DNA of 64,000 nt, from contig NZ_LZRD01000005.1 of assembly GCF_001687325.1 (NCBI RefSeq), positions 1 to 64,000 of the forward strand, read 5' to 3'. The first letter of the stretch is position 1, and the number at the start of each line of letters is the position of its first letter. This document shows positions 3,800 to 18,024 of this stretch, in pieces. The DNA is from Streptomyces sp. PTY087I2. Lineage in GTDB: Bacteria > Actinomycetota > Actinomycetes > Streptomycetales > Streptomycetaceae. The translations under genes were made by a program, and so were the position numbers. The notes under the pieces are model-generated. The model was not told the DNA's origin. It saw only the letters and a program-made list of their open reading frames with translations, and made no database searches.

Positions 3800-4297
3800 C
3801 TACGGACCCGGGGCCCGGCGCCACTTCTCGTGGACGGTGACCGTGCGGATCAGCCAGCCCGGCTCGGCGCGTTGCAGCGCGAAGGTGTACCGGCCGCCGG
3901 TCACGAAGTCGGGCGTGGCGCCGCCGGGCTGCCCGGCACCCGCCGCGTCCGGACCGTCCGCCGACTGCCGGGCCAGGCACATCGGATTGAGGTAGTCGGC
4001 CCGCACCTCGGCCCGGTCACCGGTGTAGCCGCCCAGGTCCTCCAGGTCTATCCGGCGGTTGACGATCAGGTGCTGGCGTACGGGGAAGAGACGCATCGTC
4101 TCCTCCAGCCACCGGGCCACCTCCTCGGCCGGGCCCTCCACGCCGCCCGCGCCCCGGTAGTCCGCGCGGCCGTCCGGGGTGAACAGGGCGCCGTAGTCCG
4201 CCCAGGCCCCGTCGTCGACGGCCACCGCGTACCCGGTGATCACCGCATCGATGGCAAGCCGGTCCATTACGGTCGCGAGCGCCACACGCTGTGTCAT
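3800..4297 (-). CDS. NTF2-like / SnoaL-like domain protein
   Basis: 165 residues, the length of a single cone-shaped NTF2-like domain. Typical features are an N-terminal helix leading to a DDGAWADYGALFTPDG segment (about residues 28-43), the central strands, and a closing GWLIRTVTVHEKWRR strand. Such proteins are small-molecule enzymes (dehydratases, isomerases) or ligand binders; the catalytic residues do not identify a reaction. A Gly/Ala-rich insert near residues 110-130 is probably a loop. The ATG at 4297 is the only sensible start. 175 bp separate it from lnt, and I see no gene in that gap. Confidence 0.7.
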   Translation of the reverse strand: MTQRVALATVMDRLAIDAVITGYAVAVDDGAWADYGALFTPDGRADYRGAGGVEGPAEEVARWLEETMRLFPVRQHLIVNRRIDLEDLGGYTGDRAEVRADYLNPMCLARQSADGPDAAGAGQPGGATPDFVTGGRYTFALQRAEPGWLIRTVTVHEKWRRAPGP

Positions 4298-4392
4298 CGG
4301 TCAAGTCTCGGTCAAGCCGCCCGCCGGGCCAAGAGGCCTGCGCCGACCTGAGCGCGGGCCATCTCCCCCCGGTGCGCGCCGGGGGAACGGTC

Positions 4393-5262
4393 TCAGCAGG
4401 GGACGACGGCGACCGGACCCAGCGCGTGCGTGACCGTCGTCTGCGCCACCGGGGACAGCCCGAGCCCGAGCGACTCGCCGCCCTTGCGGCGGCCGATCAC
4501 CGTCAGGGCCGCCGTCGCCGACGCGGTCACCAGGGTGCGCGAGGCGGAACCGTTGACCGGCTCCCGGACGATCTCCACCTGCGGATACTTCTCGTGCCAG
4601 CCCGAGGTCAGCTCGGCGAGCGTCCGGGCGGCCGACCCCGCCGCCTCCTGCCGGTCAAGCACCGGACCGCCCGCGAGCATCGAGGAGAACATCGTCCAGC
4701 CGTGGACGATCCGCAGCCGCGCGCCCGGCCGGGAGGCCGCGGTGGCGAAGGCGAACTCCAGGACCGCCTCGCTGCTCTCGTCGGCGGCCACCCCCGCCAC
4801 GATGTCCGTGAAGGCGTCCGCGTCCGCGCCCCGGTCGTCGTCCCCCTCGGGGCGGTCGTCCTGCACCACGACGACGGGACAGCTCGCCATCGACGCGGTG
4901 GCGAGGCTGTTGGAACCGATCATCAGCGAGCGGAAGCCGCCGAGCCCGCGCGATCCGACCACGATCATCGACGCGTCCCGGCCGAGCGAGACCAGGGCCG
5001 CCGACGGGAAGTCCAGCGGGGCCAGCGTCGACGGCCGCAGCTCCGGGGCGATGAGCGCGCTCCGGCGTACGGAATCGGCCAGCAGCGCCTCGGCCTCGCG
5101 CCGCCCGGTCTCCTCGTCGACCTGCCGGGTGAGCGGGCGGACATGGACGATCAGCAGCGGCAGCCCGCGTCGCACGGCTTCTCGGGTGGCCCAGTCCAGC
5201 GCCTGCCGGCTGTGCGTGGAGCCGTCGACGGCGGCGATCACGGGAAGATCGTTGGTGGTCAT
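4393..5262 (-). CDS. Universal stress protein, tandem UspA domains
   Basis: 289 residues, the standard size of actinobacterial double-Usp proteins. Domain 1 (about 6-140) starts PVIAAVDGSTHS and has the ATP-loop sequence VVGSRGLGGFRSLMIGSNS (G-x2-G-x9-G-S). Domain 2 (about 155-289) starts DIVAGVAADESS; its loop GRRKGGESLGLGLSPV is a variant and may bind nucleotide less well. The ATG at 5262 (MTTNDLPV) is chosen because the longer upstream frame runs back into the neighbouring gene. Such proteins act in the cytosol in hypoxia, dormancy or stress. It lies downstream of the ferric-reductase-like gene on the same strand. Confidence 0.87.
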   Translation of the reverse strand: MTTNDLPVIAAVDGSTHSRQALDWATREAVRRGLPLLIVHVRPLTRQVDEETGRREAEALLADSVRRSALIAPELRPSTLAPLDFPSAALVSLGRDASMIVVGSRGLGGFRSLMIGSNSLATASMASCPVVVVQDDRPEGDDDRGADADAFTDIVAGVAADESSEAVLEFAFATAASRPGARLRIVHGWTMFSSMLAGGPVLDRQEAAGSAARTLAELTSGWHEKYPQVEIVREPVNGSASRTLVTASATAALTVIGRRKGGESLGLGLSPVAQTTVTHALGPVAVVPC

Positions 5263-5336
5263 GCCTCCGAGCGTACGTCGCGGGCCGACGGCGCTCGTCC
5301 GTGGTGGCGGACGGCCGCTCGGTCGTGTCAGCAGGG

Positions 5337-6350
5337 TCAGTCGTGGTTGTGGGTGGAGGAGGTGTCCTCCGGGGGCACGCTGCGCCCGCCGTCCCTGCCA
5401 CTGGCCACGACGGCGACCAGCGCCACCACGACCGCCACCACCGCGAGCCGGCCGCCCAGCCGCAGCGCCCATCCCGCACGGGCCCCGGCGGTCGCGCCGG
5501 GCCGGCCGGGCAGCTTCTCGGAGCGGCGGGCGGGCCGCAGCAGCCGTAGGAGCAGCAGCGCGGCGATCGGGAGCTGGAGCAGCCAGACGGTGGTGCGGAA
5601 CCAGCCGTCGTACCAGACGTTGGTCCCGTACAGCAGGGTGTGCCAGACGCTGAGGACGTAGACGAGGATCACGAAGCGGTGCAGGACCCGCCAGGTTCTG
5701 GGGCCGATGCGGTGGCGTACGTAGAAGAGCAGCCCGAGCGGGATCGCGAGGTAGAGCGCCGCCTGGCCGACGGGGATGGCGATCCGCCCGGTCCCGGAGT
5801 CGTAGCCGCCGGGGACGAAGGCCTCCACGAAGGCGGTGGCGACGGCGGAGTTCCAGGCGGCCGTGTCGTGCCGGACCAGTTCGGCCGCGAAGAGCAGGGC
5901 GTGGGCCGCGATCAGGGCGATGGTGTTGAGGCTCGTCGTGCGGTGCAGGCGCTCCAGCCGGGGGCCCGACAGCGGCAGGCGGGAGGGGCGCGGGCCGGAC
6001 AGCATCAGCCCGAGGATGACCGTGCCCCAGGCCCAGAGCAGGGCGGACCAGCCGAACGCCTGGCTGAGGAAGTACATCCAGAAGCCGCCCGCGTCGGCCA
6101 TGAACGGCATCACGGTGACCGTGGAGGAGGTCTTGTTGCGGATGCGTATGTAGAGCAGGACGAAGACCGCCGCGGTGATGACGAGCGCCACAAGACCGTC
6201 GGGCCACGAGTCCCGGAGGTCGGAGCGGAGCGTCGGCCGTCTCGGCTCTCCCGGCCGCCGGGGCCCGGGGACCTGACTGTCGTCGGGCGCGGTGCTTTCG
6301 GGTGTCTCGGCGGCCGCTGCCGGTTCATGGGCGGGGGGCGGGTTCGTCAT
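5337..6350 (-). CDS. Ferric-reductase-like transmembrane protein
   Basis: 337 residues. After a Pro/Ala-rich cytosolic tail (1-50) there are about six to seven hydrophobic helices, with His residues in positions typical of b-type haem ligands (HRTTSLNTIALIAAHALL, and HRFVILVYVLSVWHTLLY). A last helix near 300-318 precedes an acidic, His-containing tail (TSSTHNHD). No FAD or NAD domain is present, so this is the membrane haem part only, like the YedZ/MsrQ or ferric-reductase-like family. The ATG at 6350 follows GAAGAGG. The start lies in a divergent promoter region containing a Crp-like palindrome. Confidence 0.78.
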   Translation of the reverse strand: MTNPPPAHEPAAAAETPESTAPDDSQVPGPRRPGEPRRPTLRSDLRDSWPDGLVALVITAAVFVLLYIRIRNKTSSTVTVMPFMADAGGFWMYFLSQAFGWSALLWAWGTVILGLMLSGPRPSRLPLSGPRLERLHRTTSLNTIALIAAHALLFAAELVRHDTAAWNSAVATAFVEAFVPGGYDSGTGRIAIPVGQAALYLAIPLGLLFYVRHRIGPRTWRVLHRFVILVYVLSVWHTLLYGTNVWYDGWFRTTVWLLQLPIAALLLLRLLRPARRSEKLPGRPGATAGARAGWALRLGGRLAVVAVVVALVAVVASGRDGGRSVPPEDTSSTHNHD

Positions 6351-6468
6351 GCGGCCTCTTCGGGGCGGGGATGAGGGGGCGGACGCGGCGGCCCCGGGCC
6401 ACGAGGCGTACGCAGACGCGTTGTTGGAGCAGTCGGGCGGCGGAAGGGGAAAGTTCCCGGCGCTACCA

Positions 6469-6484
6469 TGTGACATGGATCACA
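6469..6484. promoter_or_regulatory. Crp/FNR-type palindrome TGTGA-N6-TCACA
   Basis: The 16-bp sequence TGTGACATGGATCACA is a perfect match to the classical TGTGA-N6-TCACA half-site arrangement. It sits between the divergent ferric-reductase-like gene (start 6350) and the His-rich membrane protein gene (start about 6570). Streptomyces Crp prefers a related GTG-N6-GNCAC site, which this nearly fits. Binding is inferred from sequence only. Confidence 0.45.
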
Positions 6485-6569
6485 GATGGTGCTGGTGGGG
6501 CAAACGAGGTGAACTCCCCCTGTTTCGGCATCTGGTGCTCTTCTCGCCGGGGTGGGTACGGCTGGCACC

Positions 6570-7253
6570 ATGGCTGCCATGGGAGCCGGAACCGCACTCC
6601 GACTCGGGCGCACCGCGCTGTTCGCGGTCGTGTGCGTCGCCGTGTCCGGGCTCGGCCATGCCCTGATGTCCGGCGCGCCCCTGCCTCTGCTCGTGCAGGC
6701 CGCCGCGCTGCTGCCGGTGTGCGGGGCGGGCTGGTGGCTCGCCGCGCGGCAGCGGAGCGCCCCGGCGACCGTCGCCGCCCACGTCCTGGGTCAGTTGGGG
6801 CTGCACGCCTTCTTCTCCGGTGCCGGATCCTGGCTGCCGTCCGGAGCCGGCGCGCACCACGCGGGCGGTGGACACCACGCTTCGGGGGCGATGGGCCACT
6901 CCGCGCACGAGGTCCCGATCGGCGGCTCGTCGGATCTGATGGGGCTTCTGGCCGCCTTCGACGGAACGGCGTTCACCCTCGGCATGGCCGCCGCCCACGC
7001 GCTGGCCGGGCTGGTCTGCGGCTGGTGGCTGTGGCGCGGCGAGGTCGCCGTCGCCCGGCTGGGCCGCTGTCTGGCCCTGTTCGTCCGCGCCCCGCTGCGG
7101 ACGGCCTGGCTCCTGTGGTCCGCGACGCCGCCCGCCCCTGCGCCGCCCGCCCGGCGGCGCACCCGCCGCCGGGCCGGCCGCCGCCTCCAGGACCTTCTCG
7201 CCCTGCACGCCATCTCCCGGCGCGGGCCCCCGCTCTCCCTCCGCTTCCGCTGA
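6570..7253 (+). CDS. His-rich integral membrane protein, function unknown
   Basis: 227 residues from the ATG at 6570 (alternatives are GTG 6552 and ATG 6579). Four to five hydrophobic segments are visible. Between the third and fourth lies a loop of roughly residues 92-113 with seven histidines (HH, HH, GHSAHE) plus a Met, which looks able to bind Cu, Zn or Ni. The C-terminus is a strongly basic tail (RRRTRRRAGRR). I do not recognise a named family. The next gene downstream on the same strand is an ECF sigma factor, and the divergent gene is a haem membrane protein, so a role in metal or redox homeostasis is possible but unproven. Confidence 0.6.
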   Translation: MAAMGAGTALRLGRTALFAVVCVAVSGLGHALMSGAPLPLLVQAAALLPVCGAGWWLAARQRSAPATVAAHVLGQLGLHAFFSGAGSWLPSGAGAHHAGGGHHASGAMGHSAHEVPIGGSSDLMGLLAAFDGTAFTLGMAAAHALAGLVCGWWLWRGEVAVARLGRCLALFVRAPLRTAWLLWSATPPAPAPPARRRTRRRAGRRLQDLLALHAISRRGPPLSLRFR

Positions 7254-7264
7254 CCTCCATCCGC

Positions 7265-7318
7265 CCTCCGGCCTCTGCGCGCCGGAGGCGGTACGGGTGT
7301 GTGCCCCCGCGCACACCC
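7265..7318. terminator. Two adjacent hairpins between membrane protein and ECF sigma genes
   Basis: CCTCCGGC (7265-7272) pairs with GCCGGAGG (7281-7288). A second hairpin pairs GGGTGTGTGC (7295-7304) with GCGCACACCC (7309-7318) with one wobble. No U-run follows, as is common in Streptomyces. They could end transcription of the membrane protein gene or lie in the leader of the sigma gene. Confidence 0.5.
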
Positions 7319-7436
7319 CCGTGACAGGCATGCCGGTCCCCCGGGCCCGCCGCTCTCGGCGGCGCGTCCGGAACGGAACCGGTCACCGGAGCCGGGCGAC
7401 CGCTGCCGCGGCTCCGCAAGGACGCGAAGGACTGCT

Positions 7437-8306
7437 GTGACACTTCCTGCTCCCGCACTACCGGCTGCCCCCGCACAACCCGTTGCTCCCGCGCTATCGG
7501 CTTCCCCTGCACTACCGGTTGCTCCCGCACAACCCGTTGCCCCCGCACCACTGGTTGCTCCCGTACAACCGGTCGCCGCGCAACGCGCCGCGAAAACCGA
7601 GGCCGTGCCTCTGGCCGCTGTACGGTCACCTGCCGCCGCGCCGTCGGCGGGGGCGGCGACCGGCCCCCGGCCGCCGGTCCTCCGGGTGGCCGTCACCCGG
7701 CCGCCCCGGCCCCGGGTCCCGGCCGCCCGGCAGAACGACGGGCAGATCACCGACTGGGCGCTGGCCGCGGGCGGCGGGGACCGGGAGGCCGCCGACCGGT
7801 TCGTCCGGGCGACCTACGAGGACGTCCGCCGGTTCGTCGCCTACCTCAGCTCCGACGCCCCGGGCGCCGACGACCTGGCCCAGGAGACCTACCTGCGGGC
7901 GATGGGCGGACTGGCCCGGTTCGCGGGGCGGTCCTGCGCCCGGACCTGGCTGATGTCGATCGCGCGGCGCGTCGTCATCGACCGGCACCGGGCGGCCGCC
8001 GTACGGCCCCGGACCGCCGACACCGCGGACTGGCAGACCGCGGCGGAACGCGCCCAGCCCCGCCATCTGCCCGGATTCGAGGAGTCCGCTGCGGTGCTGG
8101 ACGCCCTGCGCCGATTGGACCCGGCCCGCCGCCAGGCCTTCGTGCTCACCCAACTGCTGGGCGCGTCCTACGAGGAGGCCGCGGCCGCAGCGGGCTGCCC
8201 GATCGGCACGGTCCGCTCCCGCGTGGCGCGGGCCCGCCGCGAACTCGCCGGACAGTGGCGCGCGGAACCGGCCGAACCCGCGCCCGGCGTGTCCGGCGGA
8301 TCGTGA
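7437..8306 (+). CDS. ECF-type RNA polymerase sigma factor with Ala/Pro repeat N-terminus
   Basis: 289 residues from the GTG at 7437, which is preceded by GAAGG with 6-nt spacing. The sigma region 2 core begins near residue 103 (DGQITDWALAAGGG, then DDLAQETYLRAM and the region 2.4-like helix). Region 4 is at about 222-272, with YEEAAAAAGCPIGTVRSRVARAR as the -35-binding helix-turn-helix. The first ~100 residues are unusual: a low-complexity chain of Pro, Ala, Val, Leu and Gln built from imperfect repeats. No anti-sigma gene is adjacent; the preceding His-rich membrane protein is a candidate sensor only by position. Regulon unknown. Confidence 0.82.
   Translation: MTLPAPALPAAPAQPVAPALSASPALPVAPAQPVAPAPLVAPVQPVAAQRAAKTEAVPLAAVRSPAAAPSAGAATGPRPPVLRVAVTRPPRPRVPAARQNDGQITDWALAAGGGDREAADRFVRATYEDVRRFVAYLSSDAPGADDLAQETYLRAMGGLARFAGRSCARTWLMSIARRVVIDRHRAAAVRPRTADTADWQTAAERAQPRHLPGFEESAAVLDALRRLDPARRQAFVLTQLLGASYEEAAAAAGCPIGTVRSRVARARRELAGQWRAEPAEPAPGVSGGS
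7446..7590 (+). repeat. Imperfect tandem repeats inside the ECF sigma gene
   Basis: The N-terminal coding region repeats units such as CCGTTGCTCCCGCACAACC and CCGTTGCCCCCGCACCAC, encoding APAQPVAPA- or APALPVAPA-like peptide units. About six to seven degenerate copies can be followed. Such arrays are prone to length change by slippage. Confidence 0.7.
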
Positions 8307-8343
8307 CCGTCGCCACGACGTCCGGCACGCCCCAGGGTGTGCC

Positions 8344-9570
8344 CTAAGCGGCGCCTGCCCGGGATCCCTCGGGGTCCCGGGCGGTACGGCGCCGGAGCAG
8401 GAACACCGGCAGCAGCAGGCACTGGAGGCAGACCGCCGCCCAGAACCCCCGCGCCGAGCCCGCCGCCTCCGCCGCCCCGTACAGCTGACCGCCCACCACC
8501 CCGCTCGCGAACGCTCCGATGCCCGCCGCCAGCCGCTGCCGCCCGAACACGCTCGCAGGGGCGGCGGACGAACGGGCCAGCGCCTCCAGGTCGTTCTTGA
8601 GGAAGAGCACGATCTCCCCGAGACACAGCAGCGCCCCGCCCACCGCGATCCCGGCGTGCCCTCCGGCGCCGATCGCCGCCATGCCCGCCGCCATCGCCCC
8701 GAACCCCCACCGCAACGCGGCCGGGTAGCCCATCGCGGCGACCCGTTCCGCCAGCAGCGGCTGGGCGACGACGAGGAGGGCCGCGTACCCGGTCAGGACG
8801 GCCCCGTAGAAGGCGGCGGATGTCCGGGGGACCGCGTACAGCGCCAGGTAGTGCTGGAAGAACATGAACGCGTACACGCTGAGCACGGTCACCACGAACG
8901 GCGAAGGCCCCGGGCGCGGCGCGTCCGGAACCCGGTCCGGGGCAGCGGCCCGTGTCTCCTCCCCCCGGTCCGCCGCCCCCGGCGGCAGCAGCGCGTGCCC
9001 GGCGCCGACGAGCGCGAACAGCACGGTGACGCAGGAGAACAGCACCCCGGGCGCGCCCATGACGAGGGGTGCGGCGGCCGGAGGGCCCAGCGCCATCCCC
9101 GCGTTGAACGCCGAACCGCTCGCCGACAGCAGCCGCGGGCGGGCCGTCTCCGGCGCGCCGTCCACCAAGTACGCCTTGTTCGCCGGGAGATACAGCGCCG
9201 CGCCCGCCGACACCAGCAGCAGCGCCCCGACCGCGAGGACCGGACTCGTCAGCCCGGGCACGAACGCGGCGAACCCCGCCGTACGCAGCGCCAGCGCCAG
9301 CAGCATCGCGCGCCGCAGCCCGATCCGCCCGGTCACCGGCCCCGCGACCGCGCCCCCGGCGAACTGGATCAGCGAGGCGACGGCCAGCACGAGGCCGACC
9401 GTGCCGAGGTCCAGGCCGAGCCGCTGGTGCAGCAGCACCGACATGTAGGGCAGCACGGCGAAGCTGCCCAGCGTGATCAGGAACGAGCCCGCCAGCAGGA
9501 ACCGTTGGGGACCGGTGAACGGAAGCCGTACGCGGGAACCAGGGGGCACCTTCGCGCGCAGCGGCCTCAC
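8344..9570 (-). CDS. MFS transporter, likely exporter of the upstream operon product
   Basis: 408 residues with about 11-12 hydrophobic segments. The N-terminal half has the loop 2-3 region GPVTGRIGLRRAMLLALALR, which corresponds to the MFS motif A position (G-x3-D-R-x-G-R) in a relaxed form. A charged central loop (about 210-240) divides the two halves. The GTG at 9570 lies 10 bp after the stop of the ATP-grasp gene, so it is the last gene of the four-gene operon running left from 12695. By context it probably exports (or imports) the product of the ligase and PLP enzyme. Substrate unknown. Confidence 0.82.
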   Translation of the reverse strand: MRPLRAKVPPGSRVRLPFTGPQRFLLAGSFLITLGSFAVLPYMSVLLHQRLGLDLGTVGLVLAVASLIQFAGGAVAGPVTGRIGLRRAMLLALALRTAGFAAFVPGLTSPVLAVGALLLVSAGAALYLPANKAYLVDGAPETARPRLLSASGSAFNAGMALGPPAAAPLVMGAPGVLFSCVTVLFALVGAGHALLPPGAADRGEETRAAAPDRVPDAPRPGPSPFVVTVLSVYAFMFFQHYLALYAVPRTSAAFYGAVLTGYAALLVVAQPLLAERVAAMGYPAALRWGFGAMAAGMAAIGAGGHAGIAVGGALLCLGEIVLFLKNDLEALARSSAAPASVFGRQRLAAGIGAFASGVVGGQLYGAAEAAGSARGFWAAVCLQCLLLPVFLLRRRTARDPEGSRAGAA

Positions 9571-9580
9571 CGCCCCGGGC

Positions 9581-10807
9581 TCACGGCTCGTCCGCGACGA
9601 CGACCGGGCGGACCCGCACGGCCGCGCTCCACGCCCGGTGCTGGGCCAGCTCCGCCGTGTGCCCCTCGGCCAGCACCATGCCCGTACAGCCCCGCTGGTC
9701 GCCGACGTGGACCACGCTCTCGCCGGGCTCGCGCACCGGGAACCACTCCACCGCCCCGGGAAACGCGGCGAGTTCGTCGAGCCCGAGCCAGCCCTTCAGC
9801 ACCCCGGGCCGCTCCGCGTACACCAACACGAAGCCGTACGCGGGGCCTTCGCCGTCGAGCGAGGCGTCCAGAAGTGCCGGGCGGCGGCCCAGAGCCTCGT
9901 CCATCATGGCCGTGTAGACGTTGGTCCGCAGCGTGCGGCACAGCACCTCGCCGACCAGCGCGCCGCCGATCCTCCGGTTGATCTCGACGAGTTCGGGCCC
10001 GTCGGCCGTCAGGATGAACTCCACGTGGGCGAAGCCCCGTTGATGCCCGGCCGCCGCCAGGACCCGGCCCGCCCACGCCTCGATCCCGGCCCGTTCGGCC
10101 TCCGGCAGCGCCACCGGGAACGCCGCCGCCTCCTCCCGTACCACCGCGGCCCGGGACGTCTGGCGGCTCAGCACCCCGAGCAGCCGGGTGGTCCCGTCCC
10201 AGCTGACGGTCTCCGCGCTGTACAGCGGACCGGCGAGGAACGCCTCGGCGAACAGCGCGCCCGCCAGGCGCTGTTCACCCGCCTCCGCCAGCGCCCGGTG
10301 CAGGGCCTCCTCGTCGTGCACGATCCACACATCGCGGGACGAGGTGCCCGCCGAGTCCTTCAGGACCGCGGGCAGCCCCACTGCCCGCAGCACCTCCCCG
10401 GCGCCTTCGGGACCCGGCGGGACGACCACGGCCGTACTGCGGCTCAGCCCGTGTGCGTGGAGCGTCTCCCGGACCCGGCGCTTGTCCCGCAGCAGCGCCA
10501 CAGCCTCCGGATCCGGTCCCGGGAGCCCGAGTTCACGGGCCAGGTCGGCGGCCGGCAGGCTCCAGGTGTCCGTCGTGTTGATCAGCCCGGCCAGGTCCGG
10601 CACGGCGGCCAGTGCCCGGCGGACGGCGTCCTGGTCCCAGGTGTCGACGTCGACGACGTCCAGCGCGTCCGGCGGCAGCACCGCCAACTCGTGCCGGTAG
10701 ACCGCGCGGTCGCCCGTCAGCAGGCACAGCCGGTGCCCCGCCTCCGCGGCGGCCTCCGCCATCCGCCCCAGGCCGAAGGACAGGGACTCCAGTGCGACGA
10801 TCGTCAT
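9581..10807 (-). CDS. ATP-grasp ligase (carboxylate-amine ligase type)
   Basis: 408 residues. The pre-ATP-grasp region (1-105) is followed by the ATP-binding subdomain with LPAVLKDSAGTSSRDVW (Lys and the flexible glycine/serine loop) and the Mg-binding ELVEINRRIGGALVGEV segment. These are diagnostic of ligases that join a carboxylate to an amine through an acyl-phosphate, such as dipeptide ligases and carboxylase-like members. The ATG at 10807 overlaps the stop of the PLP gene (ATGA), implying translational coupling. With an MFS gene behind it, it is likely to make a small amide-linked metabolite. Substrates cannot be read from the sequence. Confidence 0.85.
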   Translation of the reverse strand: MTIVALESLSFGLGRMAEAAAEAGHRLCLLTGDRAVYRHELAVLPPDALDVVDVDTWDQDAVRRALAAVPDLAGLINTTDTWSLPAADLARELGLPGPDPEAVALLRDKRRVRETLHAHGLSRSTAVVVPPGPEGAGEVLRAVGLPAVLKDSAGTSSRDVWIVHDEEALHRALAEAGEQRLAGALFAEAFLAGPLYSAETVSWDGTTRLLGVLSRQTSRAAVVREEAAAFPVALPEAERAGIEAWAGRVLAAAGHQRGFAHVEFILTADGPELVEINRRIGGALVGEVLCRTLRTNVYTAMMDEALGRRPALLDASLDGEGPAYGFVLVYAERPGVLKGWLGLDELAAFPGAVEWFPVREPGESVVHVGDQRGCTGMVLAEGHTAELAQHRAWSAAVRVRPVVVADEP

Positions 10808-11958
10808 GGCAGCAGCTCCACGCTCGGTACGGGGGAGGGGACATCGCCCTCATCGGTCCTGGCGGCCTCCGGAGCGGCGCGCCCGGCCCACTCCATCACC
10901 GACCACGGCGGCCGCAGTTCGTCCGGCGACGCGATGGTCCGGGGCCGCAGCCCCGCCGGGTCCAGCGCCTCGGCATGCCGGGCGAACACCCGTTCCGCGT
11001 AACGGTGTCCGGTGTCGGCGCCCAGCACCAGATGCAGCCGCCCGGGATCGCGGGCCGCCTCCCAGGAGGCCGTCAGATGGGCCGCCCCGGTGGAGAGACC
11101 CGCGAACACGGCGTGTTCCCGCAGCAGTCCGACCGCCCCGGCCATCGCATGGCGGAAGTCCAGCCAGTGGACGGTGTCGTACAGCTCGTGGCGGACGTTC
11201 CCGAACGGGATCGAGCTGCCGATGCCCGCGATGATCGCCTCCGGGTCCTCGAACCGCTCGCTCCCGAAAGTCACACTGCCGAACGGCTGGATGCCCACCA
11301 GCCGCACCGGCCGCCCCGACTCCCGCAGCGCACGCGCCAGTCCGCCGGTCGACGCACCCGTGCCCACCGCGCCGACCACGGTCAGCGGGCCTTCCGGCAG
11401 CGCCCCGGTCAGCAGCTCCGCGAACTCCCGGTAGCCCTCGTGGTGGACCCCGTCGTGGTACTGCCGCATCCAGTGGAAGTCCGGCCGCTCGGCCAGCAGC
11501 CGGCGCACATGGCGTACGCGCAGCTCCTGGTCCAGACGCAGGCTCTGCGAGGGCGGCATCGCGTCGACCGTCGCGCCGAGGATCTCCAACTGCGCTCGCA
11601 TGGTGGCGTCCACGGTGGTGGAGGCGACGATGTGGCAGCGCAGCCCGTAGCGGTGGCAGGCCATGGCGAGCGCCAGCGCGTAGATCCCGCTGGAGCTGTC
11701 GACCAGGGTCTGCCCGGGGACCACCCGGCCCCGGCGCAGCAGCGAGCGGACCGCGCCGAGGGCCGCGTACACCTTCATCGTCTCGAAGCGGGCGAGGACG
11801 ACGTCGTCGGTCAGCCGGATCAGGTCCGGGGTCTTCATGGCGTCGGTGATGTGGCGGTGGACGGTGGCGGCCGGCGTGGTGGCGGTGCGCGGAGCGGCGT
11901 CCGCCCCCGGCACGGGCGTGGTGGCGGTGCGCGGACGGGCGTCCGCCCCCGCCCTCAC
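10804..11958 (-). CDS. CysK/SbnA-like PLP-dependent enzyme (beta-substitution type)
   Basis: 384 residues from the GTG at 11958, whose GTGA overlaps the stop of the methyltransferase gene; ATG 11838 is the start if the repeat-bearing N-terminal extension is not translated. This is fold-type II PLP architecture. RFETMKVYAALGA holds the probable Schiff-base lysine. GAVGTGASTGGLARAL is the phosphate-binding loop. The substrate loop that reads SGNTG in cysteine synthases is SGIYA here, so the asparagine that touches the cofactor is lost. The family includes cysteine synthase and diaminopropionate synthase (SbnA). A non-proteinogenic amino acid product feeding the ATP-grasp ligase is a reasonable inference. 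Confidence 0.8.
   Translation of the reverse strand: MRAGADARPRTATTPVPGADAAPRTATTPAATVHRHITDAMKTPDLIRLTDDVVLARFETMKVYAALGAVRSLLRRGRVVPGQTLVDSSSGIYALALAMACHRYGLRCHIVASTTVDATMRAQLEILGATVDAMPPSQSLRLDQELRVRHVRRLLAERPDFHWMRQYHDGVHHEGYREFAELLTGALPEGPLTVVGAVGTGASTGGLARALRESGRPVRLVGIQPFGSVTFGSERFEDPEAIIAGIGSSIPFGNVRHELYDTVHWLDFRHAMAGAVGLLREHAVFAGLSTGAAHLTASWEAARDPGRLHLVLGADTGHRYAERVFARHAEALDPAGLRPRTIASPDELRPPWSVMEWAGRAAPEAARTDEGDVPSPVPSVELLP
11873..11951 (-). repeat. In-frame 42-bp duplication at the 5' end of the PLP enzyme gene
   Basis: Two ~37-bp near-identical units (11873-11909 and 11915-11951) lie at a period of 42 bp. Each encodes 14 residues, of the type GADAxPRTATTPxx. They lie between the coupled GTG start and the first ATG, so they form a tail that the family core does not need. 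Confidence 0.75.
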
Positions 11959-12695
11959 TTGCGCCGCCCGCGCACGATGAGCCGGTCCGAGCGCTGGTCG
12001 TAGCCGGATGCGTCGAACCCGCCGAAGCACTCCACGTCCGTGAAGCCCGCGCTCTCGAAGAGGGCGTGCAGCTCGGCCGCCGAGTAGAGCCAGGAGGTGA
12101 TGGAGGCGGTGCGGGCCGTCGTGCCGCGCACCAGCGTCCAGTCGGTGCGCAGCCGCCGCCAGCTGTCGAGGACGGTGTCACGCTGGACGACGTAGGAGCC
12201 GTCGGGCAGGTCGACCGCCTTCGGCCGCCCGATCCAGCCCGCCAGCACCTCCTTCCCCATCACGTCCACCAGGAGCTGCCCGCCCGGCGCGAGGCTCTCG
12301 TACGCGTTGCGCAGCACCTGGAGGTTGTCCTCGGCCTCGTCGAAGTAGCCGAACGACGTGAACACGTTCAGGATCACGTCGAAGGCGCCCGGCTCCCGGT
12401 ACGTGAGCATGTCGGCCCGCTCCAGCCGGACCGCGGCGCCCGCCGCGTCGCAGGCGGTACGGGCGCTCTCCAGCATCGACGGGGACAGGTCGACGCCCGT
12501 CACCTCGTACCCGCGGCCCGCCAGCGGCACCACGAAGAGGCCGGGCCCGCAGCACAGGTCCAGGACTCTCGTGCCCGGTGGGAAGTCCAGCAGCGGGGAG
12601 GACGCGACCAGGGCGGCGGCGGACTCGGCCCGTGCCGGTGGGAACATCGTCGGCGCGAAATCGGACCAGAGCGCGTCGTCCTCGTACCAGTGCAT
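11955..12695 (-). CDS. Class I SAM-dependent methyltransferase
   Basis: 246 residues. Motif I is VLDLCCGPGLF (about 44-54), followed by the acidic end of strand 2 in VTGVDLSPSML, and FDVILNVFTSFGYF as the motif IV region. The C-terminal part has the extra strands seen in small-molecule methyltransferases. The ATG at 12695 is chosen because GGGAGGAGA lies just upstream; the frame extends further 5' without a better start. First gene of the operon with the PLP enzyme, ATP-grasp ligase and MFS transporter. It probably N- or O-methylates the pathway intermediate or product. Confidence 0.83.
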   Translation of the reverse strand: MHWYEDDALWSDFAPTMFPPARAESAAALVASSPLLDFPPGTRVLDLCCGPGLFVVPLAGRGYEVTGVDLSPSMLESARTACDAAGAAVRLERADMLTYREPGAFDVILNVFTSFGYFDEAEDNLQVLRNAYESLAPGGQLLVDVMGKEVLAGWIGRPKAVDLPDGSYVVQRDTVLDSWRRLRTDWTLVRGTTARTASITSWLYSAAELHALFESAGFTDVECFGGFDASGYDQRSDRLIVRGRRK

Positions 12696-12853
12696 GCCTC
12701 GCGGTCTCCTCCCGGGCCCGGGGCCCCGTGGGTGTACTGCGGCGGTCACCCCGGCGGCCGTCCCGTCGCACCGGCCGCCGCTCGCGTCACCGGGAGGGCG
12801 TCCGCACCCGGCGTCTCTCCAGTAGTCGGCCGCCCCGGTGGGGAAGTTCCCGC

Positions 12854-12913
12854 GTAATCACAGGCCGATGTCCTGCCCGGGCCTTCCTCGTGATCACCGG
12901 GCGACGTGATCAC
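12854..12913. promoter_or_regulatory. Array of GTGATCAC palindromes (candidate operator)
   Basis: GTGATCAC occurs twice, at 12890-12897 and 12906-12913, exactly 16 bp apart. A one-mismatch copy, GTAATCAC, lies at 12854-12861. Each octamer is itself palindromic. Helically spaced repeats in a divergent promoter region suggest a transcription-factor site. The regulator is unknown; it could serve either transcription unit. Confidence 0.45.
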
Positions 12914-12978
12914 GGGACGACGCCAGGGGCCCGCTGCCGGAAGCCTCACCGGCGGTTCCCGGCCGGTGTGCAGGCGAC

Positions 12979-13017
12979 GTAACCGGCGTTGTTCGCCCGG
13001 TGTCATCCCTGGGTAAC
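12979..13017. promoter_or_regulatory. Possible GlnR boxes upstream of nitrate reductase
   Basis: GTAAC (12979-12983), GTCAT (13002-13006) and GTAAC (13013-13017) lie about 80-120 bp before the nitrate reductase start; the last two are 11 bp apart. GlnR sites in Streptomyces are built of GTnAC/GAAAC pentamers at 11-bp spacing, and nitrate assimilation genes are known GlnR targets. The GAAAC half-sites are not well conserved here, so this is a weak call. Confidence 0.3.
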
Positions 13018-13096
13018 GGGCCTTTCCTAGATTCGGGAGCGACCGCCGCCCGCCCCGCGTCCCTCCGGGAACGCCCGCCCCCGAAGGGCCCCGCAC

Positions 13097-16000
13097 ATGA
13101 CCGTGCCGACCCCGCCGCCGGACGCCCCCGCCACCGACCGGGTGCGTACGGTCTGCTCGTACTGCGGTGTCGGCTGCGGGATCGTCCTCGACATCGCCGC
13201 CGGGCCCGACGGCCGCCGCACCGTCGTGAAGGCGTCCGGCGACAAGGAGCACCCGTCGAACGCCGGCCGGCTGTGCACCAAGGGCGCGACCGGCGCGGAC
13301 CTCCTCGCCGCCCCCGGCCGGCTGACCACCGCCCTGGCCCGCGCCGACCGCAGCGAGCAGCCCGCCCCGCTCGGCCGGGACGCCGCCATCGCGGAGACGG
13401 CGCGCCGGCTGCGGTCCGTGCTGGACACCCACGGCCCGGACGCGGTGGCCCTCTACGTCTCCGGCCAGATGACGCTGGAGGCGCAGTACCTCGCCAACAA
13501 GCTGGCCAAGGGCTTCCTGCGGACCAACACCATCGAGTCCAACTCCCGGCTCTGCATGGCGAGCGCGGGCAGCGGCTACAAGCTGTCCCTCGGCGCGGAC
13601 GGACCGCCCGGCTCCTACGAGGACTTCGCCCACGCCGACGTCTTCCTCGTCACCGGCGCCAACATGGCCGACTGCCATCCGATCCTCTTCCTGCGGATGA
13701 TGGAGCGCGTCAAGGCGGGCGCGAAGCTCATCGTCGTCGACCCCCGGCGCAACGCGACCGCCGCCAAGGCGGACCTGTATCTGCGGATCCGGCCCGGTAC
13801 CGACCTGGCCCTCCTCAACGGCCTGCTGCACCTCCTCGTCGAGAACGGGCACACCGACCCGGAGTTCATCGCCCAGCACACCGAGGGCTGGGAGCAGATG
13901 CCCGCCTTCCTCCGCGACTACCCGCCCGCCGCGGTCGCGGAGATCACCGGCATCCCGGAGGACGACATCCGGCAGGCGGCCCGCTGGATCGGCGAGGCGG
14001 GCGAGTGGATGAGCTGCTGGACGATGGGGCTCAACCAGTCCACCCACGGCACCTGGAACACCAACGCGCTGATCAACCTGCACCTGGCGACCGGCGCGAT
14101 CTGCCGCCCCGGCAGCGGCCCGTTCTCGCTCACCGGCCAGCCCAACGCCATGGGCGGCCGCGAGATGGGCTACATGGGCCCCGGGCTGCCCGGCCAGCGA
14201 TCGGTCCTGTCCGACGAGGACCGCGCCTTCACCGAGGAGCTGTGGGGCATCGAACCCGGCACCCTGCGCGCGGACGGCTCGGGCAGCGGCACCGTCGACC
14301 TGTTCCGGCGCATGGCCGAGGGGGAGATCAAGGCCTGTTGGATCATCTGCACCAACCCGGTCGCCTCGGTCGCCAACCGCCGGACCGTCATCGAGGGCCT
14401 TGAGGCCGCCGAATTCGTCGTCACCCAGGACGTGTTCGCCGACACCGAGACCAACGCGTACGCCGATATCGTCCTGCCCGCCGCGCTCTGGGCCGAGTCC
14501 GAGGGCGTGATGATCAACTCGGAGCGCACGCTCACCCTCTCCCGCCGGGCCACCGACCCGCCCGGGGAGGCGTGGCCGGACTGGCGGATCATCGCGGAGG
14601 TCGCCTGCGCCCTGGGGTACGAGGACGCCTTCGGCTACACGAGCGCCGAGGAGATCTTCGCCGAGATCACCCGGGCCTGGAACCCGCACACCGGCTACGA
14701 CCTGCGCGGAGTGACGTACGAGCGGCTGCGCGGGACGCCGGTCCAGTGGCCGAGCGCGGACGCCGAAGGGCCCGCCCGCAACCCCGTGCGTTACCTCAAC
14801 GACGGTGTCAGCCAGGAGCTGACCGTACGGCCCGACGGCAGTGTGCCGAGGCTCGCCTTCCCGCTGCCCGGCGGCCGGGCCGTCTTCCACGCCCGCCCGC
14901 ATCTGCCGCCCGCCGAGATGCCCGACGAGGACTTCCCGTTCGTCCTGAACACCGGGCGGCTCCAGCACCAGTGGCACACCCTCACCAAGACCGCGAAGAT
15001 CACCAAACTGAACCGGCTGGACCCGGCCCCCTTCGTGGAGATCCACCCCGACGACGCGGCCGCGCTGGGGCTGGCCGAGGGCGACGGCGTCGAGGTCGCC
15101 TCGCGGCGCGGCCGCGCGGTGCTCCCGGCCCGGATCACGGACCGGGTCGCGGCGGGGGAGTGCTTCGCGCCGTTCCACTGGAACGACCTGTTCGGCGAGT
15201 ACCTCGGCGTGAACGCGGTGACGAACGACGCGGTCGACCCGATCTCGTTCCAGCCGGAGCTGAAGGTGTGCGCGGTCCGGCTGGCGAAGGTCGCGGCCCC
15301 GGCGGTACGCCTGGCTCCCGCCACGGCGGGGGCTCTCGGCCTGGCGGAGACCGGGGGCGGGGCGGATCCGGCGGACGGGATGGGGCCGGCGGATCGGATA
15401 GGGCCCGCGGGATCGGGCGACCGGGCGGGGCTCGCGGACCTGACGGGGCTGGCGGGCGCCCTGGGTCTGGCGGAGACCGCCCCGCCGGTCCTGACCGACG
15501 CGGAACGCCGCTATCTGGCCGGATTCCTGGCGGGCCTCGGCACCCGCCCGGCGGGCACCCCGGTGCTTCCGGCGGGCGCCCCGTTCGCCCCGGACCACGC
15601 CCTGTGGGTGGACGGAGTGCTGGCCGGCGCCTACTCCCGGCTCCCGGAGCCCCCGGGACCCGGGATCGCGCCCGCACCACCGGAGGATGCCCCGGAGGAA
15701 CAGAGCGGCCGCCCGGTCGTCGTGCTGTGGGCCTCGCAGACCGGCAACGCGGAGGAGGTCGCCGCGACGGCCGCCCGGACGCTGGCCGCCGAGGGGTACC
15801 GCACCACGCTCCTCGGCATGGACGACGGAACGCCCGACGCGCTGCCGAGCCCGGCCGACCTCCTCGTGGTCACCAGCACCTTCGGCGACGGCGACGCCCC
15901 CGACAACGGCTCCGGCTTCTGGGAGTCGCTGAACACCCCCGAGACCCCGCGCCTGGAAGGCGTCCGCTACGCCGTACTCGCGCTCGGCGACTCCACGTAC

Positions 16001-17353
16001 GACGACTTCTGCGGCCATGGCCGCCGCCTGGACGAACGCTTCGGCGAACTGGGCGCGGAGCGGCTGGTGCCGCGCACCGACTGCGAACCGGAGTACGAGC
16101 AGCCCTTCGGCCAGTGGCTCAAGGAGGTCAGGGCGGCACTGGAGGCGACGAATCCGGAAGGAACGACGGCATCGGAAGCCACGCCGACAAAGGCGATGAT
16201 CAGAGCAGCGGCACCGGGGGAGAAACAGCCCTCCAGGGCCGAGCCCGTCACAGCCCTCCTGACCGAGAACCGCCTCCTCAGCCTGCCCGGCGCGACGAAG
16301 GAAGTCCGCGCCTTCACGATCGACACGCGGCACGCGGAGACCCCGCTGACGTACACGGCCGGGGACGCCCTCGGCGTACGGCCGCTCAACTGCCCCGACC
16401 TGGTGGCCGAATGGCTGGCCGTCACCGGACTCGACCCGGCGGCCGAGGTGGACATCGACGGGCACGGGACGGTCGCGCTGGAGACGGCCCTGCACCGCCA
16501 CCTCGACATCACGCGCATCACCCCGGACCTGCTGCGCCTGGTCGCCGACCACACGGGGGACCGGTCCCTGAAGAAGCTGCTGCGCCCCGACAACAAGGGC
16601 GAGAGGGACCGGTGGACGTGGGGGCGGCAGGCCGTCGACGTGCTCGCCGAGTACCCGGTACGGGCCGCAGCCGCCACCTGGGCCGAGGTGCTGGGTCCGC
16701 TGCGCCCCCGGCTGTACTCCATAGCCAGCAGCCCTCTTGAGGACCCTCACCGGATGCGCCTCACGGTCTCCGTGATCCGGTACGAGAGCGACCTCGGCCG
16801 GATGCGGAAGGGCGTGGCCTCCACGTTCCTCGCGGACGCCGAACCGGACAGCCCCGTCCCGGTGTTCGTCCAGCGCAACGAGCGCTTCCGCCCGCCCGCC
16901 GACCCGGCCACCCCGATGATCATGGTGGGCCCGGGGACCGGAGTCGCCCCGTTCCTGGGGTTCCTGGAGGAACGCCGGGCGCTCGGCCACTCCGGCGCCA
17001 ACTGGCTGTTCTTCGGCGAGCAGCACCGCGCCACGGACTTCTACTACCGCGAGGAACTCGACGCGATGAGCCGCTCGGGCACTCTGACCCGGCTGGACAC
17101 CGCGTTCTCCCGCGACCAGCGGGCCAAGGTGTACGTCCAGGACCGGATGCGCGAGCACGGGGCCCAGCTCTGGTCCTGGCTCCGCGACGGCGCCCACCTC
17201 TACGTCTGCGGCGACGCCTCCCGCATGGCCAAGGACGTGGACCGGGCGCTGCGGGACATCGCCGTCGCCCACGGCGGACTCGAACCCGACGCGGCGGCCG
17301 CCCAGGTCAAACAGCTAGCCTCGGACCGCAGATACGTACGGGACGTGTACTGA
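13097..17353 (+). CDS. Bifunctional assimilatory nitrate reductase / CysJ-like flavoprotein fusion
   Basis: 1418 residues. The N-terminal part is a molybdenum bis-MGD nitrate reductase: a [4Fe-4S] site from Cys20, Cys23, Cys27 and Cys60, then the catalytic core, and a cofactor-binding domain from about 613 ([15 protein letters not shown]). A Gly/Ala-rich linker (about 735-870) with repeated LGLAET units leads to a flavodoxin domain ([11 protein letters not shown], about 876), an FAD domain from about 1045, and an NADPH-binding domain ([14 protein letters not shown], about 1275), ending in the CysJ-like RYVRDVY. The fusion should carry electrons from NADPH through FAD, FMN and Fe-S to nitrate in one cytosolic chain. 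Some actinobacteria encode this fusion. The ATG at 13097 gives the usual start. Confidence 0.92.
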
Positions 17354-17381
17354 CGGACCGACCGACCGAGGGAGTACGGGA

Positions 17382-17948
17382 ATGGCCTGGGCGGAAGTAC
17401 CGGTGGACACGAAACCACGGGCGGCGGGGGCGGTCCTGCTGATCGGCATCCCCGGCAGCGGCAAGAGCACGGTGGCCGCGGCGCTGGCCGCCCGGTTCGC
17501 CGCCTCCGCCCACATCGAGGTGGACGCCCTCCAGGAACTGATCGTCTCCGGCGGCCGGTGGCCCTCGCCCGACGGGGACGAGGAGGCGGACCGCCAGATC
17601 CTCCTCCGGGCCCGCAACGCCTGCCTGCTGGCGGACAGTTTCGCCGCCGCGGGCTTCCTCCCGGTCATCGACGACGTCGTCGTACGCCGCGCCCACCTGG
17701 ACTTCTACCGCGCCACGCTCACCGGCGGACCCCTGCACCGCGTCATCCTGGCCCCGGGCGCGGCGAAGGCCCGCGAGCGCGATCTCGCCCGGGACAAGAC
17801 GCTCACGACGGACTGGTCGTTCCTGGAGACGGCGATGCGCGACGAGCTGGCCGACGAGAAGATCTGGATCGACAGCGCGGACCTGACAGTGGCCGAAACG
17901 GTCGACGCGGTCCTGTCCGCGACGGGCCTGACGCCCGACCGACCCTGA
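17382..17948 (+). CDS. P-loop AAA-type kinase/phosphotransferase
   Basis: 188 residues. The Walker A motif GIPGSGKST is at 22-30, so it binds ATP or GTP. The size and the DDVVVRRAHLDFYR segment near the middle resemble small P-loop kinases of the chloramphenicol-phosphotransferase/AAA_33 kind, with an Arg-rich lid (KARERDLARDKT). GAGGGA precedes the ATG at 17382, 28 bp after the nitrate reductase stop, so the two may be co-transcribed. The substrate cannot be named. Confidence 0.72.
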   Translation: MAWAEVPVDTKPRAAGAVLLIGIPGSGKSTVAAALAARFAASAHIEVDALQELIVSGGRWPSPDGDEEADRQILLRARNACLLADSFAAAGFLPVIDDVVVRRAHLDFYRATLTGGPLHRVILAPGAAKARERDLARDKTLTTDWSFLETAMRDELADEKIWIDSADLTVAETVDAVLSATGLTPDRP

Positions 17949-18024
17949 CCCCCCGGCCGTTGTCAGACCCCCACCGTACGGTGGAACCATCTATCCGCGC
18001 TGCTGGCTGCTGCGCTGCTGGATC

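Follow-up and report, generated by a model that had tools for sequence, protein, structure and literature searches.

Does a compact cluster of four genes in Streptomyces sp. PTY087I2 make a metallophore and, if it does, for which metal and under what control? The locus lies at positions 8,344 to 12,695 of a stretch of 64,000 nucleotides (contig NZ_LZRD01000005.1, positions 1 to 64,000; hereafter called the window). An initial annotation, made from the sequence alone, had described it as an operon for a methylated, amide-linked amino-acid metabolite or metallophore. From our analysis it is fairly likely that the operon belongs to a SigC regulon and serves, under copper shortage, to produce and export a chalkophore, a small metabolite that binds copper, without a nonribosomal peptide synthetase (NRPS). 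The four genes, the promoter in front of them and the adjoining sigma factor gene are as follows.

11955..12695, minus strand: class I S-adenosylmethionine-dependent methyltransferase, 246 amino acids (Pfam Methyltransf_25, E 1.3e-19).
10804..11958, minus strand: CysK/SbnA-like pyridoxal phosphate (PLP) enzyme, 384 amino acids (Pfam PALP, 1.2e-30); presumed PLP lysine K62; SSSGIYA where related PLP enzymes have SGN.
9581..10807, minus strand: ATP-grasp ligase of the L-amino-acid-ligase type, 408 amino acids (Pfam LAL_C2, 2.8e-13; ATP-grasp_4, 4.1e-9).
8344..9570, minus strand: major facilitator superfamily (MFS) transporter, presumed exporter, 408 amino acids (Pfam MFS_1, 2.1e-17).
12825..12851, minus strand: SigC-type promoter of the operon, GGGAAC-N17-CGAC, continuing as TACTGG; its outer end lies 156 bp before the methyltransferase start.
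7725..8246, plus strand: conserved core of a SigC-like extracytoplasmic function (ECF) sigma factor, in an open reading frame (ORF) at 7299-8306 whose start is not settled; convergent with the MFS gene.

The gene layout given in the initial annotation proved exact in its coordinates, and the four families are backed by Pfam. The GTG start of the PLP gene overlaps the methyltransferase stop (GTGA), the ATG start of the ATP-grasp gene overlaps the PLP stop (ATGA), and 10 bp separate the ligase stop from the MFS gene. Among the NCBIfam matches listed, none of the four proteins received a name above cut-off; the best name for the methyltransferase, daptide methyltransferase, was rejected at 69 bits versus a cut-off of 175. 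None of the four had a Pfam match to the IucA/IucC domain of the NRPS-independent siderophore synthetases.

We then asked whether these genes stay together in other genomes. One genome per species was scanned with the PLP enzyme, and the best 80 of 91 matches were kept as loci. The methyltransferase gene was near the PLP gene in 74 of the 80 loci and the ATP-grasp gene in 77, with both present in 72; an MFS gene was found in 48, and some of the missing genes reflect short contigs. The proposal of a small dedicated operon thus holds in relatives as well. The loci carry ten actinobacterial genus labels (Streptomyces, Saccharopolyspora, Kibdelosporangium, Actinosynnema, Amycolatopsis, Saccharothrix, Actinokineospora, Sphaerisporangium, Goodfellowiella, and Rhodococcus). 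The Rhodococcus rhodnii locus is almost like the Kibdelosporangium one, and Sulfitobacter has only the PLP gene and a weak ATP-grasp match (26%). Of 150 Streptomyces genomes, 24 have an orthologue of the PLP enzyme that is at least 65% identical. S. griseus and S. globisporus are among the species with the operon.

The same loci often contain uptake genes, namely a FecCD-type permease (31/80), an ATP-binding cassette (ABC) ATPase (34/80), and a substrate-binding protein (27/80), as assigned by Pfam on examples. The gene order methyltransferase, FecCD, ABC ATPase, binding protein, PLP enzyme, and ligase, with the MFS gene in some, is seen in Amycolatopsis, in Kibdelosporangium, in part of the Saccharopolyspora loci, and in several Streptomyces. 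An exporter and a chelate-type importer around biosynthetic genes are the usual anatomy of a metallophore locus. That the FecCD, ABC ATPase, and binding-protein genes share the cluster in many relatives supports the metallophore option. That part of the earlier description stands; the SigC-type promoter, the adjoining sigma factor gene, and copper had all escaped it.

Upstream of the operon, the relatives share the sequence CGGGAAC-N17-CGACTACTG. Counting only loci with at least 300 bp upstream of the methyltransferase gene, we found GGGAAC-N17-CGAC in front of 67 of 73 methyltransferase genes, compared to 0.2% of base shuffles. Spacings between 12 and 22 other than 17 were rarer there (14 in 13 cases, 12 in 2, and 18 in 1). 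The 68 methyltransferase sites gave the consensus cGGGAAC-N17-CGACTACTGg; one of them is an artifact, by its position apparently that of L048, whose contig ends inside the methyltransferase gene. The motif also preceded FecCD genes in 14 of 31 cases, and the MFS (4/47), PLP (5/80), and ligase (1/76) genes less often. Similarly, all 16 whole-genome Streptomyces loci with the methyltransferase gene in reach (out of 24 loci) carry the site, a set that includes the window itself and overlaps in species with the named relatives.

Other genes share the promoter. Of the 28 relatives' loci that hold the ferric-reductase-like gene, 23 have a site close to it, while in five loci the gene behind a SigC-type site is P450-like and in six it encodes a zf-HC2 protein (Pfam run on one of each). 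The tally that yielded the latter two groups is not used for counts; it also placed 22 "ATP-grasp" ORFs behind the motif, which we put down to a GGGAAC-N17-CGAC inside the PLP gene (11176-11202). Since that intragenic site encodes a conserved peptide, we took it as a coincidence and rejected it as a promoter. Separately, two CGTGATCACCGGACGA-like units lie upstream of the operon promoter (window positions 12889-12922) and could form an operator; no GTGATCAC was spotted on inspection of the upstream sequences of 13 relatives.

The sigma factor gene convergent with the MFS gene scored 169.1 bits with the Mycobacterium tuberculosis SigC model NF007231, about 100 bits above the next best protein of the genome (69.6). 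Of the 80 relatives' loci, 44 include a SigC-like gene, and when only the 62 loci flanked by 6 kb or more on each side are counted, 39 do; several different arrangements occur among the loci listed. Of the 24 Streptomyces genomes (among 150) that have a PLP orthologue at the 65% identity threshold, 22 also have SigC, compared to 84 of the 126 others (Fisher p 0.014). These numbers were counted by hand, and because the genomes are related by descent, the p value is only a guide. A tandem repeat of an 18-bp unit in 7 copies (7448-7573), lying between the neighboring His-rich ORF and the sigma core, makes the start of the sigma gene uncertain.

What does this promoter control elsewhere? According to one mycobacterial study (PMC7924339), ppe1-nrp and ctpB are induced by SigC, and a mutant lacking sigC grows poorly when the medium is deficient in copper; ctpB itself was not differentially expressed between the mutant and its parent in that medium. 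According to a second study (PMC9600254), loss of nrp, fadD10, or ppe1 causes sensitivity to starvation for copper and not for zinc, and the nrp product is a copper chalkophore. We searched 60 mycobacterial genomes, their identity being judged from SigC scores and PPE genes, for FcoT. It was found in 14, each of which contributed its best FcoT locus (G280 has a second match besides the one counted). In all 14 loci a site lies upstream of FcoT on its strand, 12 being exact GGGAAC-N17-CGAC and 2 having CGGAAC, at a distance of about 2.4 to 2.7 kb in 13 loci and 1.0 kb in L194. A PPE1-type ORF lies behind the site in 13 of the 14, and a TauD-type dioxygenase ORF in four (L191, L194, L202, and L204; one with spacing 16 and one with CGGAAC), the PPE1/TauD-type ORFs following the site by 21 to 173 bp. 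Moreover, four FcoT loci have a further site 22 to 43 bp before a heavy-metal P-type ATPase-like ORF. Pfam was run on one PPE, one TauD, and two ATPase proteins. At the sequence level, the promoter of the Streptomyces operon is therefore the same as the one before the kinds of genes that SigC reportedly controls in mycobacteria. Together, this promoter and the neighboring SigC-like gene make copper the likely metal.

The PLP enzyme clearly belongs to PALP (107 bits versus a cut-off of 35), and its structural model (pLDDT, the predicted local distance difference test, 82.3 from 32 sequences) has the CysK/SbnA fold, 4jbl (Z score 34.6) being tied with SbnA 5d84 (34.4; root mean square deviation [rmsd] 2.4, 297 residues aligned). 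K62 is invariant in all 32 rows of its alignment and, in an alignment with eight PALP proteins from the same genome, falls on their lysine; the latter alignment also held wrong-strand translations of places among these eight, which we disregarded. The loop preceding K62 is shorter than in the PALP proteins compared, and where SGN has its Asn, the five subfamily rows examined have Ile, Val, or Thr. By these sequence features, the enzyme is a distinct CysK-like subfamily member with its presumed catalytic lysine intact. Its likeness to CysK and SbnA had been recognized in the initial annotation and is upheld, whereas diaminopropionate as its product is not established, because the enzyme falls far below membership in the SbnA model TIGR03945 (130.7 bits versus a cut-off of 349.95). 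All three loci checked (L119, L133, and L137) have a GHMP kinase gene (possibly a serine kinase) close to the PLP gene, which suggests a phosphoserine-type substrate for the PLP enzyme. In L137, an argininosuccinate-lyase-like gene adjoins the ATP-grasp match.

The ligase scored 50.3 bits with LAL_C2 (cut-off 29.4) and 36.7 bits with ATP-grasp (cut-off 27). Its model (pLDDT 93.6, 27 sequences) is closest to L-amino acid ligases, with a Z score of 38.2 for 3vot (rmsd 3.0, 380 residues aligned) and of about 34 for YwfE/BacD. A ligase from primary metabolism would have spoken against a dedicated pathway; the enzyme is instead of the L-amino-acid-ligase type, has no primary-metabolism name above cut-off, and the structural model agrees.

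These observations can be assembled into a tentative scheme. Copper starvation would activate the adjoining SigC-like ECF sigma factor, as work on mycobacteria suggests, and the sigma factor would transcribe the operon from GGGAAC-N17-CGAC, a promoter recognized by its conservation and paired here with SigC by analogy. The PLP enzyme, judging from its family, could convert an activated serine into a β-substituted alanine or an aminopolycarboxylic acid. The ATP-grasp enzyme, judging from its family and model, may then form an amide bond between this product and a second amino acid, while the methyltransferase would methylate the scaffold and the MFS protein export the product. The copper complex might re-enter through the FecCD/ABC ATPase/binding-protein importer, which is encoded in the cluster of many relatives and not in that of this genome. 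Ferric-reductase-like and His-rich/PepSY membrane proteins sharing the promoter may reduce or handle copper.

Several observations weigh against this copper reading. The window sigma factor, at 169.1 bits, does not reach the curated NF007231 cut-off of 219, and for this reason we call it only SigC-like; 0 of the 150 Streptomyces genomes pass that cut-off. No SigC-like gene was found in 23 of the 62 well-flanked loci, nor in 2 of the 24 Streptomyces genomes with a PLP orthologue (G092 and G028, the latter a draft assembly in about 1300 contigs), and the 84 genomes with SigC among the 126 others have it without the operon. The motif GGGAAC-N17-CGAC was absent upstream of the SigC-like gene itself (0/42), the ABC ATPase gene (0/34), and the binding-protein gene (0/25). 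Its rarity proves nothing alone, since a reversed control also occurred in the genome: 4 sites versus 3 for the strict form GGGAACTT-N15-CGAC, 3 versus 2 for the strict form with CGACTA, and 46 versus 32 for a loose form. In the window, the loose form gave 3 sites versus 1.07 expected, a number matched by 9 of 100 shuffles. We therefore rejected genome-wide rarity as evidence. Three of the four strict sites precede the operon, the ferric-reductase-like gene, and a contig 24 His-rich ORF with a PepSY gene; the fourth (C6:258233) lies inside an ORF that by look only resembles a sugar-binding protein and was counted as chance. In the mycobacterial genome G244, which clearly has a SigC, the best-formed site lies before a PPE and ESX locus (EccA/B/C, FtsK/SpoIIIE-type) and no chalkophore cluster. 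As a separate observation, this ESX locus (L176, C8:283001-303000) adjoins an ORF resembling, by look only, a metal-binding lipoprotein. Finally, the 27 FecCD-type matches in the PTY087I2 genome reach at most 50% identity, so that no close homologue of the relatives' importer was found. Contig 20 of the genome (about 80954-84346) has a PALP gene and a FecCD permease within 4 kb, possibly a second metallophore locus.

The operon could also serve zinc, cobalt, nickel, or iron, with SigC responding to other metals or with copper shortage as one trigger among several, a possibility that we rate well below copper. Importers of the FecCD type are used for iron chelates as well as for B12, and for the one in the relatives the highest-scoring NCBIfam names are those of putative transporters of F420-0, B12, heme, and iron, each below its cut-off among the matches listed. 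SbnA-like enzymes serve iron and zinc chelators. In addition, of 13 loci (L119-L131) with PLP paralogues of about 55 to 62% identity, 11 (L119-L121, L123, and L125-L131) have FecCD genes alongside, and both loci checked for it (L119 and L127) have a DUF364 "putative heavy-metal chelation" gene. None of the 13 has a SigC-type site directly before the PLP gene; L127 has one before its binding-protein gene. These loci probably represent a sister family of metallophores with a different regulator, and the toolkit is thus not tied to copper. Against other metals for the operon itself, its promoter matches that of the copper-specific mycobacterial operon, and no Zur, DmdR, Nur, or NikR box was found within mismatch limits in 400 bp of each of 32 relatives' upstream regions, a weak negative since generic consensus strings were used.

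It is improbable that the product is an exported bacilysin-like dipeptide antibiotic or signal, with the MFS protein for export or self-protection, and no metallophore at all. The ligase model does lie closest to the dipeptide-forming 3vot and YwfE/BacD; however, FecCD-type uptake genes in 31 of 80 loci and the sharing of the SigC-type promoter with ferric-reductase-like and PepSY genes argue otherwise. A primary or cofactor pathway, for instance F420-precursor or corrinoid handling as hinted by the below-cut-off F420-0 and BtuC-like names of the relatives' importer, is very unlikely, given that none of the four proteins has an F420 or corrinoid biosynthesis name above cut-off and that the PLP orthologue is spread patchily (24 of 150 Streptomyces), unlike a core pathway.

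Returning to a SigC-controlled chalkophore, how does the operon compare with known systems? It resembles the mycobacterial SigC-controlled ppe1-nrp diisonitrile operon and ctpB in GGGAAC-N17-CGAC, in a SigC-type sigma factor, and in the proposed copper-starvation role. However, its four proteins have no Pfam match to NRPS, FadD-type (FadD10), FcoT, or TauD-type enzymes, its chemistry is different, and many of its relatives have FecCD uptake genes. With SbnA of staphyloferrin B synthesis and the CysK-like enzymes for nonprotein amino acids, the PLP enzyme shares the fold and the aligned K62; it differs from SbnA in its low model score, the shortened loop, and an Ile in place of the SGN Asn, and Pfam found no SbnB-like match among the four proteins. 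The ligase has the fold and the LAL_C2 domain in common with BL00235 and YwfE/BacD but is only about 20% identical to them and sits in a metallophore-type cluster. The [S,S]-ethylenediaminedisuccinic acid zincophore genes of Amycolatopsis japonicum are reportedly another small NRPS-free metallophore route. By description only, they are set apart by zinc-dependent control (so the title of the paper on them), as opposed to a SigC-type promoter here.

Few chalkophores have been described, and they are generally products of NRPS or NRPS/polyketide synthase systems or ribosomally synthesized and posttranslationally modified peptides. Metallophores and chalkophores as such are known kinds; what appears to be new is this gene combination under SigC. 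Indeed, a word-matching search of open-licence PMC articles found neither the methyltransferase/PLP enzyme/ATP-grasp/MFS combination under SigC nor a paper pairing a chalkophore, a zincophore, or a Streptomyces copper metallophore with an ATP-grasp enzyme.

On a broader scale, we lean, by a little, toward a view in which SigC acts as the switch for copper starvation in much of the Actinomycetota and has taken on chemically unrelated chalkophores. These would be diisonitrile lipopeptides in mycobacteria and, here, a very small new class (a methylated amide of a PLP-made amino acid, NRPS free), found, going by labels, in about ten actinobacterial genera. An importer of its own often accompanies it, and Saccharothrix and Goodfellowiella add a P450-like gene under the same promoter. 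If this is true, a four-gene NRPS-free route would explain copper acquisition in many Streptomyces and related genera, the role of the sigma factor would have been kept while the molecule it controls changed, and one promoter motif together with one sigma factor would provide a handle for finding further copper-acquisition genes.

Beyond the sigma factor gene, the window contains three more features of this neighborhood.

6432..6458, minus strand: second SigC-type promoter, GGGAACTTT-N14-CGAC, before the ferric-reductase-like gene.
5337..6350, minus strand: ferric-reductase-like membrane protein (Ferric_reduct, 36 bits versus a cut-off of 28); the start is the ATG after the promoter, the longest ORF beginning at 6476.
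6552..7253, plus strand: His-rich membrane-protein-like ORF without a Pfam family, beside the sigma gene.

A homologue of the His-rich ORF was found in 29 of the 80 relatives' loci. Likewise, contig 24 of the same genome (L142:7665-10019) has a His-rich membrane-protein-like ORF and a PepSY_TM gene behind a SigC-type promoter. Among 41 genomes searched, 17 (Streptomyces) had the PepSY gene, 13 of them with a SigC-type site upstream; the site is also present in G013, a genome without a close relative of the PLP enzyme. An Rfam search of window positions 4000 to 18000 returned nothing at gathering score. On the other side of the operon, a divergent fused gene (13097-17353, plus strand) combines a molybdopterin-oxidoreductase (nitrate-reductase-like) part with flavodoxin, FAD, and NAD domains resembling the sulfite reductase flavoprotein.

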